Shown here: positions 12,391-18,938 of the stretch, one piece after another
How positions within the stretch are numbered: the stretch's first letter is position 1
Layout: the number at the start of each line of letters is the position of its first letter
NCBI RefSeq assembly: GCF_003574135.1
Contig: NZ_AP018341.1
Span: forward strand, 558,001 to 622,000
Source: a cyanobacterium endosymbiont of Rhopalodia gibberula
Lineage (GTDB): Bacteria > Cyanobacteriota > Cyanobacteriia > Cyanobacteriales > Microcystaceae
Reading direction: 5' to 3'
Length of the DNA stretch: 64,000 nt
The notes under the pieces: generated by a model
Databases searched by the model: none
What the model was told of the DNA's origin: nothing
Seen by the model: only the letters and a program-made list of their open reading frames with translations
Translations under genes and position numbers: made by a program

Positions 12391-15300
12391 ATGAATAATT
12401 CCTTCCTTAACCATCTTCAAAGTCCCAAACGCCCTGTTCTTGTCTTTGACGGTGCAACAGGGACTTCATTACAGACTCAAAATTTGACCGCCGAGGATTT
12501 TGGAGGACCTGAATATGAAGGGTGCAACGAGTACCTAGTCCAAACCAAACCAGAAGCAGTTGGGAAGGTACACAGAGAGTTTTTGGAAGTTGGTGCAGAT
12601 GTTATTGAAACTAATTCTTTCGGAGGGACGTCCATTGTTCTTGCTGAGTATAATTTAGCAGACAAAGCATATTATCTCAACAAAAAAGCCGCTGAACTAG
12701 CAAAGAATATTGCAGCTGAATATTCTACTCCTGAAAAACCCCGTTTTGTAGCAGGTTCAATCGGACCAGGAACCAAACTACCCACTTTAGGACATGTTGA
12801 GTTTGATACCCTCAAAAAATCGTATATCGAACAAGTAGAAGGATTATATGATGGTGGGGCAGATTTATTAATTATTGAAACCTGCCAGGATGTACTACAA
12901 ATTAAAGCAGCTTTAAACGCTGTCGAAGAAGTTTTTCGCCAAAAATGTGACCGTTTACCAATTATGGTTTCGCTCACAATGGAAGTAATGGGGACGATGT
13001 TAGTGGGAACAGAAATAGGCGCCGCATTAGCTATTCTAGAACCCTATAAAATTGATATTTTGGGACTCAATTGCGCTACGGGACCTGAACAGATGAAAGA
13101 ACATATTAGATACTTATCTGAACATTCCCCTTTTATAATTTCTTGTATTCCCAATGCTGGGTTACCCGAAAACATTGGTGGACAAGCACATTATCGTCTA
13201 ACTCCAATGGAATTAAAAATGGCGTTAATGCACTTTATTGAAGATTTAGGGGTACAAATTATCGGAGGATGTTGTGGAACTCGTCCAGATCATATCAAAG
13301 CGTTAGCAGAACTTTCCCATAGTTTAAGACCTAAAGAACGCCACCCCAATTATGAAGCTTCTGCTGCTTCAATTTATAGTGCACAACCTTATATTCAAGA
13401 TAATTCATTTCTAATTATAGGAGAAAGATTAAACGCTAGTGGCTCTAAGAAATGTCGTACCTTACTTAATAAAGAAGACTGGGATAGCCTCGTATCTCTA
13501 GCAAAATCTCAAGTGAAAGAAGGAGCACATATACTTGATGTTAACGTAGATTATGTTGGAAGGGATGGGGTACGAGATATGCGCACATTAGTCTCCTGTC
13601 TTATTAAGAATATAACCTTACCTTTAATGCTTGATTCGACAGAATGGCAAAAAATGGAGGCAGGGCTAAAGGTGGCAGGAGGTAAATGTATCCTCAATTC
13701 TACTAACTATGAGGATGGGGAGGGACGCTTTCTAAAAGTATTAGAATTAGCGAAGAATTATGGTGCAGGAGTTGTGATAGGAACTATTGACGAAGACGGA
13801 ATGGGGCGCACCAAAGATAGAAAATTTGAGATTGCAAAACGAGCTTATAATGCAGCAATAGAGTATGGAATACCTGCCCATGAACTTTTTTTTGATACGT
13901 TAGCATTACCTATCTCTACAGGTATAGAAGAAGATAGAAAAAACGGAAAAGCAACTATTGAATCTATTAAGCTTATTCGAGAAGAATTGCCAGGGTGTCA
14001 TATTTTACTGGGGATTTCTAATATTTCCTTTGGCTTAAATCCTGCAGCGCGACAGGTATTAAACTCCATATTTTTATATGAAGCAATGCAAGTAGGATTG
14101 GATGGGGCGATCGTTAGCGCAAACAAAATATTACCCCTCACTAAAATTGAGCCAAAACATCAAAAAATATGTCGAGATCTAATTTACGATCTACGAGAAT
14201 TTAATGAAGATATCTGTACCTATGATCCTCTAACAAAATTGACGGAATTATTTACAGGTAAGACTACGAAAAAAGATCCCACAAAAATAGCTAATGTATC
14301 TATAGAAGAACGACTTAAACAGCATATTATTGATGGAGAAAAACTAGGTTTAGAAGAAGCGTTAAAACTAGCACTAAAACAATATCATCCCCTCGATATT
14401 ATTAATATATTTCTTCTTAATGGAATGAAAGTAGTAGGTGAGTTATTTGGTTCAGGACAAATGCAGTTGCCTTTTGTGTTACAGTCTGCTCAAACTATGA
14501 AAGCTGCGGTAGCTTACCTAGAACCTTTTATGGATAAAGAAGAAAATGGTAATGATAATGGAAAAGGCAAGTTTATTATTGCAACTGTCAAAGGAGATGT
14601 TCATGATATTGGCAAAAACTTGGTTGACATTATCCTTTCCAATAATGGCTACAAAGTAATTAATCTAGGTATTAAACAATCGGTTGAGAATATCATTCAA
14701 GCTTACGAAGAGCATAAACCTGATTGTATTGCAATGAGTGGTCTATTAGTCAAATCAACAGCATTTATGAAAGATAATTTAGAAGTCTTTAATGAGCGTG
14801 GAATTAATGTTCCTGTAATTTTAGGAGGAGCTGCTTTAACCCCAAAATTTGTCTACGAAGACTGTCAAAATACCTATAGAGGTAAAGTCATTTATGGGAA
14901 AGATGCCTTCTCCGATTTAGCATTTATGGATACATTAATGCCAGCGAAATCAGTTGGAAGCTGGAATAATTCACAAGGATTTTTGGGAGAATTTAAAGAA
15001 AAAAATAGCCTATTTCAGAAAGAAAGAGGAGAAAAGACAGCAAAAAAATTTGCTGAGAAAGATGGTAAATCTACTTCCCTGAAAAACTTACAAATCATTG
15101 ATACAAAAAGATCAGAGGCTGTAAAAATAATAGACCCTGTTTCCCCTCCTTTCTGGGGAACTAAGATTTTAAATCCAGAAGACCTAAATCTAAGTGAAAT
15201 ATTCTGGTATTTAGATTTACAGGCGTTAATTGCAGGTCAGTGGCAATTTCGCAAGCCTAAAGAACAATCACGGGAAAAACACCATCAATTTTTAGTCAAG

Positions 15301-15969
15301 AAAGTTTATCCGATTTTAGAAGACTGGAAACAGAAAATTATTACAGAAGATTTATTGCATCCTACAGTGGTTTATGGTTACTTTCCCTGTCAATCTGAAG
15401 GAAATAAATTGTTAGTTTATGATCCCGAAATTATCCAAAACTTAGACGATAAAATCCCTGAAAATATAGAACCTATTTGGATAATTGAATTTCCTCGCCA
15501 AAAATCCGGTCGTCGCTTATGTTTTGCAGACTTCTTCAATTCTAAGGAATTAGGGCTAATTGACGTATTCCCGATGCAAGCAGTGACCGTCGGGCAAATT
15601 GCAACAGAATACGCACATAAACTCTTTGCTGATAATGATTATACAAATTATCTTTATTTTCATGGTATGGCTGTTCAAACTACCGAGGGGTTAGCTGAAT
15701 GGACACACGCTAAAATTCGTCGAGAATTAGGCTTTGGAAAGAAAGATCCTGATAATATTAGAGAAATATTACAACAGCACTATCAAGGTTCTCGTTATAG
15801 CTTTGGGTATCCTGCTTGTCCCAATATTCAAGATCAATATAAACAATTAGAGGTATTAGGATGCAATCGCATCGACATGTACATGGATGAGAGTGAACAA
15901 ATCTATCCTGAACAGTCTACAACAGCAATTATTACCTATCATCCTGTTGCTAAATACTTCAGTGCATAA
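12391..15969 (+). CDS. metH: MetH, cobalamin-dependent methionine synthase
   Basis: MetH transfers a methyl group from methyltetrahydrofolate via cobalamin to homocysteine, making methionine. All four modules are present in 1192 residues. The homocysteine domain (about 1-330) has zinc ligands in GLNCATG and GGCCGT. The folate domain (about 340-620) includes [12 protein letters not shown]. The B12 cap and binding domain (about 640-880) carries the cobalamin-ligand His in GDVHDIGKN, near residue 737. The SAM activation domain (about 935-1190) has [20 protein letters not shown]. Retention implies that cobalamin is made or obtained. A menG pseudogene starts 16 bases downstream. Confidence 0.95.
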
Positions 15970-15984
15970 GTTAACTATTTGCCC

Positions 15985-16702
15985 ATGATCTATTCAAACC
16001 CGCATTCTGCTACAAAAAGTCTAAGGATTTTTAGGCATATTGCCCCAGTTTACGATAGATATAAACAACGTTTTAAGTTTAGAACAACATCTTATATGGA
16101 AGCTAATAGCTATTAAATAGAGTCAACCTCAATTGGGAGATAAAGGATCAGATGTCCGCTGTAGGAGTTGAGATTTAGCCCAATTATTAGCTCGTCAAAA
16201 AGTCGGATAAACGGAACAAGTGGTGTGATTAGATTTTTTTCGGGAACAACTGAAGATCGCCTGTAAACAATCTATTTGTAAATCATTCTTACTATCAATT
16301 GAGTGAACTGAAGAAAATATCCTCAATTTATCGTTTAAGGATTAGAAGTTCAACTGTGTTACTATGATCTATAGTTTATGAAACATAATCGATATTTTCT
16401 GTTGTTTACAGAAGTTACATCGTATCCTAAAACTATACTCGAAAGTATCTTTAATTGACTTTCATCGTTCTCAACAATCTTTAATGCGTTATTTTCAATA
16501 ATAATGTTACTTGCGAACCCTAGTTGTCTCAACAGCTCAAAACTTTGGCTTAACCTAAGAATATACTTACATTAACCCCAGTTAAGAGAAATTGCCCATC
16601 GAAACTCAACAGGTTAAATTAACCTATGACATAGTATTTATCCATAAATTCCATTATTCTAATGTCATAGGAATGATGAGGGTATTAGTTCCTATAAAGT
16701 AA
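15985..16702 (+). pseudogene. menG: menG/ubiE pseudogene (demethylphylloquinone methyltransferase)
   Basis: The intact enzyme methylates 2-phytyl-1,4-naphthoquinone, the last step to phylloquinone of photosystem I. The remnant spans about 239 codons, the normal length. In order, across several frames, I read HIAPVYDRY (16036 on), SLEQHLIWK (about 16076), SQPQLGDKGSDVRC and DLAQLLARQKVG (in place of the GSGDLALxLAR region). Further on come LHRILK (about 16415), DFHRSQQSLMRYFQ (about 16457), STAQNFGLT and finally GMMRVLV for the family's GGMMGVLV. A frameshift lies between 16056 and 16070 and multiple in-frame stops follow. The remnant cannot encode a functional protein. The family call rests on motif order, not on an alignment. 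Confidence 0.85.
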
Positions 16703-17717
16703 AATGATATATAAAAGATAAAAGAAAAAAATTTAATACTTATTTTTTATCTCCTCCTTTATTTTTCAAAAAACTGAATCATCTTGTTAAATGTTTTAAA
16801 CAATTAATTTATACTGAATCTAGTGAACTGTTGTTGAATAACCTATTCTAGGCTTAGAACTGATACACTATTAGTTAAATTCTGTATCAAAGTGTTAACC
16901 TTGTAGGAAAAAGTCAATATCAACTTGTGTAAGAAGTCATTTGGGGACTCAGTAAATTTACGATGATTTGGACTAAACAAGATATGTACGAGCAACTAAG
17001 GTAACTTAAAGGAGTAGCGAAAGAAATTCATTGATTATAAGACACTTAACTTTAAAGGTATGGTATTCCGAAAGTTTATTTTGAGAATAAATAACTTTTA
17101 CTCTCCATTTTATCTCTGAATAATAATAAGTAAAGGTAACAAATAACTACTGTAACAAACTTAAATCTGAAGACTTATTTGGGATTCTAGGAATCCTCTG
17201 ATCTTCTAAATAAGATTGAAATTACCGCCAAGTGGAACGTTAAAAAGTACATTATACTGTTTTGTATCTCTATATTTAGACAATCATAATTAAATTTATA
17301 TTGCTTTAATTGATATTTTTAACGGTAACGAATCCGAACATATTTTTGTTAAAATTAAATTGTCTTGGCTCAATTATTTTCAAATATTTTTCTACAATTT
17401 TATTAGCTTTTTTATTAGCTCGCATAAGATATAACTCTCCTTCTATTATGTTTAGTTCTGAATTATATATCTCTGCATATTCGTATAAAACTTTTCTGTT
17501 TTCTGTTTTTAAACAAAAAATATGAAGTAATTTTTTATTATTACTCTTTTTCAGTTTCTAGCTCCTTTTGATGACTCTAAAGATTTTTTGGAAGTTTATT
17601 TTGCTTTTATCTCTTTTTTAGAACCTTAAATATTAAACACTAAAGAATGGAAAATAGGCCCTTAATCCATTAAAATAAATGTGTAGAATAGTCCCTAACC
17701 ACTTATCTAGACAGACC
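16703..17717. other. AT-rich spacer, nothing recognised
   Basis: About 1 kb with a small hairpin (GGATTC/GAATCC near 17181-17195) and one 71-codon frame at 17310-17525 of no recognisable family. It contains no supported gene. Confidence 0.4.
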
Positions 17718-18938
17718 ATGCAAACCATGGAAACTACCCAGCTTCTAACATCCTCTGCTCCTGAATTTGATACTGCCATTCATCGTCGTAAAACCTGTCC
17801 TGTCCCAGTAGGAGATGTCATCATTGGGGGAGATTATCCTGTGGTGGTGCAATCAATGATTAATGAGGATACCCTAGATATTGAGAGGTCAGTCACCGCT
17901 ATTCGGCGTCTACATGAAATTGGCTGTGAAATTGTACGAGTTACTGTTCCTAGTATGTCCCATGCCAAAGCCCTAGCAGGTATTAATAAAAAACTTACTC
18001 AAGTTTATCAAAAGGTTCCCCTAGTAGCCGATGTACACCATAATGGCATGAGGATTGCTCTAGAAGTCGCTAGGCACGTGGATAAGGTTCGTATTAACCC
18101 TGGATTATATGTCTTCGAGAAACCTAATCCCATCCGTGGTGAATACACCCAAGCTGAATTTAATGAAATTGGCGAAAAAATCGCAAACAAATTGAAGCCC
18201 TTGGTTATTTCTTTAAAAAATCAGGGAAAAGCTATGCGAATTGGAGTTAATCACGGTTCCTTAGCTGAAAGAATGTTATTTACCTATGGGGACACTCCCG
18301 AAGGAATGGTAGAATCGGCTCTAGAATTCATCCGTATTTGTGAATCTCTAGATTTTCATAGAATAGTCGTCTCACTAAAATCATCCCGTGTTCCCGTGAT
18401 GTTATCCGCCTATCGCTTGATGGTTAAACGGATGGATGACCTAGGAATGGACTATCCCCTACATTTGGGGGTCACAGAAGCGGGAGATAGTGAATATGGA
18501 CGAATTAAATCTACTGCCGGAATTGGAACTCTCTTAGCTGAAGGAATTGGGGATACTATCCGCGTTTCCTTAACTGAAGCCCCTGAGAAAGAAATTCCTG
18601 TTTGTTATAACATCCTCCAAGCCTTGGGATTACGTAAGACCATGGTGGAGTACATCGCTTGTCCTTCGTGTGGCCGAACTCTATTTAATTTGGAAAAAGT
18701 CCTTAACGAAGTACGAGAAGCCACTAAACATTTGACAGGGTTAGATATTGCGGTGATGGGTTGTATTGTCAATGGTCCAGGAGAAATGGCCGATGCAGAC
18801 TATGGTTATGTTGGGAAACAGTCCGGATACATTTCTTTATATAGGGGGCGGGAAGAGATTAGAAAAGTTCCTGAGGACCGAGGCGTTCAAGAATTAATTG
18901 AGTTAATAAAAATTGATGGCCGTTGGGTTGACCCTTAA
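17718..18938 (+). CDS. ispG: IspG (GcpE), HMBPP synthase
   Basis: IspG is the [4Fe-4S] enzyme that converts MEcPP to HMBPP in the non-mevalonate isoprenoid pathway. The TIM-barrel part contains [20 protein letters not shown] and [11 protein letters not shown]. The cluster-binding C-terminal part has [12 protein letters not shown] (about residue 314) and [20 protein letters not shown] prefer ATG 17718 over the in-frame 17679 because residues before MQTMETT look like spacer; ATG 17727 is also possible. The length is about 406 residues, normal for cyanobacteria. Isoprenoids are needed for the plastoquinone side chain and lipid carriers even without photosynthesis. Confidence 0.94.

Follow-up and report, generated by a model that had tools for sequence, protein, structure and literature searches.

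The endosymbiont of Rhopalodia gibberula (RgSB) carries a full-length menG pseudogene together with intact ubiX and ubiD genes in the analysed window, a stretch of 64,000 nucleotides that spans positions 558001–622000 of its single-contig chromosome of 3,020,309 bp. The reading that we favour, with a probability of roughly 0.94, is that photosystem I (PSI) is gone from RgSB, that phylloquinone would thereby have become purposeless, so that selection on menG, menA, menB and menD would have ceased and these genes would have decayed, and that ubiX, ubiD and ubiA would have been kept because plastoquinone is also used in respiration. MenG performs the last step of phylloquinone synthesis, while plastoquinone is needed for both photosynthesis and respiration (PMC7133116), and diazoplasts are reported to retain a complete respiratory electron transport (PMC11070190). 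The order of the losses, PSI first or phylloquinone first, is one that we infer, and plastoquinone is presumably present in the RgSB cell. We compared RgSB (G000) with the diazoplasts EcSB (G001; 3,072,807 bp, NZ_CP123991.1), EtSB (G003; 2,794,318 bp) and EpSB (G004; 2,483,960 bp); a size of 2.48 Mb has been published for the genome of the Epithemia pelagica endosymbiont (PMC11167328). The men genes examined were menA, menB, menD and menG.

Table 1. Features of the RgSB window (position 1 is the first letter of the window)
Feature	Position	Strand	Remarks
ubiX, flavin prenyltransferase, intact, 202 aa	2049..2657	+	family match; dN/dS 0.16–0.25 (4 of 6 diazoplast pairs)
metH, intact	12391..15969	+	adjoins the menG remnant on its upstream side in each of the four diazoplasts
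menG (demethylphylloquinone methyltransferase) pseudogene	15985..16702	+	full length; +1 frameshift at ~16061; 11 in-frame stops
inserted base, frame-shifting	16061..16061 (placement uncertain by a few bases)	+	from DNA alignment; common to EcSB and EtSB, missing in EpSB
ispG/gcpE, open	17679..18938	+	downstream neighbour in all four diazoplasts; also downstream of the intact menG of free-living G002
ubiD family decarboxylase, intact, 502 aa	41513..43021	+	family match; dN/dS 0.08–0.12 (4 of 6 diazoplast pairs)

The menG remnant opens with an ATG at 15985 and closes with a TAA at 16700–16702. A profile built from the alignment of 14 intact cyanobacterial MenG proteins matches it at C1:574058-574699 (E 2.3e-71) over model positions 25–236 of 237, and the Pfam family PF01209 matches it at C1:574061-574621 (window 16061–16621) with an E-value of 5.2e-20 in a search of its own genome; both matches run through 11 stops. 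By BLASTX, the closest intact MenG is that of the free-living relative G002 (213 residues aligned, 57% identity). The initial 32–34 residues align in another frame than the rest, a shift that the DNA alignment locates to a single inserted base. The preliminary description of this DNA, which had drawn exactly these limits and reported a remnant of full length with a frameshift near 16060 and many stops, is thus confirmed: the locus is a full-length menG pseudogene. Searches of the RgSB genome with PF01209 and the MenG profile revealed no second menG. Besides the remnant, PF01209 has two further matches, one of them an intact methyltransferase. The other (G000:C1:1876608-1876790) is a weak match to the UbiE family with two stops, and is probably a further broken methyltransferase.

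That the remnant derives from another UbiE-type methyltransferase is extremely improbable. PF01209 is indeed a large family, matched in all 39 genomes searched and at least twice in 38 of them, and the NCBIfam models passed by the intact relatives bear the broad names UbiE and MenG_MenH_UbiE; against this, the best match of the remnant extends over nearly the full length of the single high-scoring MenG of same-genus relatives, at the identity given above, the MenG copies of G006 and G021 pass the curated cut-offs of NF001244 and TIGR01934, and the neighbour ispG is common to the remnant and to the menG of G002. The remnant is flanked by metH and ispG in each of the four diazoplasts, and in G006 metH also adjoins menG, on the opposite strand. 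A synteny search for menG beside metH in the first locus set, in which the remnant was compared with open reading frames of at least 80 residues from 89 loci, was negative, with a best E-value of 0.68 for the remnant, so that the MenG references come from the PF01209 search of the 39 genomes. Behind the menG remnant, positions 16936–17031 (with an opposite-strand shadow to 16826) hold a short remnant of the gene that lies 3' of menG in free-living relatives: it is 53–56% identical over 32 residues to the end part of their gene of 153–160 aa, which is dead in RgSB as well.

The selection pattern agrees with loss of function. Nei–Gojobori counts over 4 of the 6 diazoplast pairs gave a dN/dS of 0.46–0.67 for the menG remnants, a rough figure because stop codons were dropped from the underlying DNA alignment, versus 0.13 between two intact free-living copies; the same pairs gave 0.09–0.16 for the adjacent metH. 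Compared with the intact copy of G002, the remnants have a dN/dS of 0.31–0.38, a value that mixes selected and unselected periods. The menG remnants are under relaxed selection, whereas ubiX and ubiD are under purifying selection. The RgSB assembly was produced from short reads after amplification (PMC5638926), and errors may occur in any single genome, so that the stops and the frameshift could in principle be sequencing or assembly artefacts in a functional menG. The probability of this is practically negligible: the same insertion and the same stops at codons 62 and 189 occur at the same syntenic place in three genomes, 11 stops are far above the level of error, and the dN/dS of menG is raised.

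The losses extend to the other phylloquinone genes and to PSI itself. In RgSB, the top match for menA is the chlG gene (33 bits versus a cut-off of 225), menB persists as a remnant with nine stops and one short overlapping match, and menD is represented only by two open frames of ~70 bits (cut-off 244), which we take as paralogues. Across the ten genomes searched, menA and menD each exceed the cut-off in six and menB in five, and none of these is a diazoplast; menB remnants are found in RgSB, EcSB and EtSB, and no menB match was obtained in EpSB or in the UCYN-A-like G013. For psaA/psaB, RgSB has three short matches, two of them with stops; in the 11 genomes searched, the diazoplast matches are broken fragments confined to RgSB and EcSB, with no match in EtSB and EpSB. 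Full-length open frames for both genes occur in G002, G006, G007, G013, G021 and G029, and G005 has one of them full length and the other divided between contigs. Intact menG and intact psaA/psaB are thus each found in none of the four diazoplasts, while menG, menA, menB, menD and psaA/psaB are all found in the free-living G002, G005 and G006 and in the UCYN-A-like G021. Neither a second intact menG with men and psa genes elsewhere in RgSB nor a different identity of the remnant has emerged. In line with these results, PMC5638926 reports that RgSB has no functional PSI or PSII genes, and Table 1 of PMC12903740 gives seven phylloquinone-biosynthesis and 11 PSI proteins of the core set as absent from all rhopalodiacean endosymbionts.

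The plastoquinone genes are preserved. Both ubiX and ubiD of RgSB, given as intact in the preliminary description, have open frames uninterrupted by stops and match their families, and they are present in all nine genomes searched, including the four diazoplasts. Stops were listed inside four ubiX matches, those of EcSB, EtSB, EpSB and G013; in the three that were re-read, EcSB, EtSB and EpSB, they lie upstream of the ATG (2049) of a 202-residue gene free of stops. RgSB also has three UbiA-family genes, all open, which bear the NCBIfam names heme o synthase, 4-hydroxybenzoate polyprenyltransferase (ubiA) and chlorophyll synthase ChlG, so that UbiA, UbiX and UbiD are all intact. The Synechocystis gene sll0936 presumably encodes the UbiD homologue. 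Deletion of this putative decarboxylase gene lowers plastoquinone, and the activities of Synechocystis UbiC, UbiA and UbiX have been demonstrated in E. coli (PMC7133116).

The intact methyltransferase gene matched by PF01209 (L002:1219-2217, about 416186-417184 of G000:C1) is open in all four diazoplasts and occurs in two UCYN-A-like genomes. Its open frame has 336 aa, or 332 aa when counted from a GTG, and its dN/dS is 0.10–0.19 in 4 of the 6 diazoplast pairs. The protein falls below the cut-off of the best 25 of 35 matched NCBIfam models; we take it to be of the MPBQ/MSBQ type, and it may be the plastoquinone methyltransferase. Could such a paralogue, or an enzyme supplied by the host, complete phylloquinone and leave the route unbroken? 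Protein import from the host is discussed for symbionts of this kind (PMC12176269), and the 332-aa enzyme is available in each diazoplast, yet we consider this very unlikely, as the lack of intact menA and menD and the death of menB should leave MenG without its substrate, psaA/psaB are dead in RgSB, and chlP, whose product makes the phytyl tail, has been described as a pseudogene (PMC12903740). The 332-aa enzyme is kept although the same source counts the proteins for tocopherol and phylloquinone among the losses.

From the dead menG and the kept ubiX and ubiD, the preliminary description had predicted a loss of PSI with a retained respiratory quinone pool. This prediction is partly supported: the state that it describes, no PSI and a kept plastoquinone route, is right at gene level, but menG alone does not suffice to predict it. 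Loss of menG by itself is weak evidence, and the step to PSI loss becomes sound only with the losses of the other men and of the psa genes. Synechocystis menG mutants reportedly retain PSI activity with an unmethylated quinone. The 99% complete genome G029 (L129, L136, L142, L148) keeps psaA/psaB, menA, menB and menD, and the MenG profile gave only weak matches in it, which suggests that PSI does not strictly depend on the presence of menG; a real loss of menG and a gap in the assembly are equally likely here, and a family search around this genome returned G029 alone. In G007, which is 78% complete, PSI is present and the profile search found no MenG. A third candidate, G013, has PSI, menA and menD, and its menG match (L126) covers only the last 87 residues; it was dropped as a counterexample, as the preceding stretch reads N and the match begins where the N run ends. 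PSI of Gloeobacter has been assigned menaquinone-4, another naphthoquinone (PMC9000952).

Disabling changes held in common date the death of menG and menB relative to the splits among diazoplasts. In the DNA alignment, the menG remnants of RgSB, EcSB and EtSB share the one-base insertion at ~16061 and are interrupted at two common sites, MenG codons 62 and 189, by stops. All three also have a stop at codon 45, spelled TAG, TAG and TGA, respectively, which perhaps does not go back to one event. In menB, a gene that EpSB lacks and for which the comparison is that of RgSB, EcSB and EtSB, codons 31 and 185 are stops in all three genomes, which also have two deletions in common. A tree of UbiX and UbiD from eight genomes groups RgSB, EcSB and EtSB with a support of 97 (protein) or 99 (DNA), places EpSB next to them with a node support of 100, and has the free-living G002 as the next branch outside the diazoplasts. 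The shared lesions demonstrate that menG and menB were dead before RgSB, EcSB and EtSB split.

EpSB follows another pattern. Its menG has neither the ~16061 insertion nor the stops at codons 45, 62 and 189, its top BLASTX match stays in a single frame across the insertion site (residues 19–101, E 4e-10), and the DNA alignment of the four remnants contains no lesion common to all of them. Codon 66 is a stop in both EpSB and EtSB, which also have a one-base deletion in common; codons 71, 170, 175 and 183 are stops in both EpSB and EcSB, which have a four-base insertion in common as well. These pairwise coincidences are probably due to chance, because they contradict each other and the tree, and most of them fall in regions that align poorly. 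In EpSB, menG may then have died separately. The EpSB copy is strongly decayed, with 53% DNA identity to the intact gene of G002, so that the traces of an earlier lesion common to all could have disappeared. Within the syntenic 60 kb, compared with six 20-kb stretches from two free-living relatives as references, no usable pseudogene kept by EpSB was found beyond menG, and the argument from EpSB therefore depends on one locus. As a tentative scenario, to which we assign somewhat less than even odds, the last common ancestor of the diazoplasts, EpSB included, would still have possessed a functional menG and therefore probably PSI, with phylloquinone and photosynthesis lost later and independently in the freshwater RgSB, EcSB and EtSB and in the marine EpSB, either within an early photosynthetic symbiont or after separate acquisitions. 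Dating by shared lesions thus bears on whether diatoms acquired their symbionts once or several times, a point that PMC12903740 leaves open.

The loss of PSI, PSII and phylloquinone biosynthesis in RgSB and its relatives is already published and mostly known: the work on rhopalodiacean spheroid bodies describes the same losses in the same genome (PMC5638926) and in a comparison of six (PMC12903740). Our results confirm gene by gene that an N2-fixing endosymbiont sheds the quinone genes of PSI and keeps those of respiration, and they add, as a small novelty, the dating of menG and menB death by shared lesions. In the main text of PMC5638926, and likewise in those of PMC11070190, PMC11131595 and PMC12903740, the terms menG, ubiD and plastoquinone are absent; their supplements may list menG. 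Like RgSB, UCYN-A (the nitroplast) is a diazotrophic endosymbiont of cyanobacterial origin with a reduced genome and no PSII (PMC11070190), and the UCYN-A-like G013 and G021 belong to the same family as RgSB; unlike RgSB, UCYN-A has kept PSI, and menA, menB, menD and menG are intact in G021. The parasitic plant Phelipanche aegyptiaca has lost photosynthesis, as diazoplasts have, but keeps phylloquinone synthesis, with a role at the plasma membrane (PMC8133638), whereas diazoplasts lack intact menA, menB, menD and menG. Finally, the chlorophyll synthase gene chlG (L089:1360-2346, about 2562058-2563044 of G000:C1) is open although RgSB has no photosystems, as previously reported (PMC5638926).
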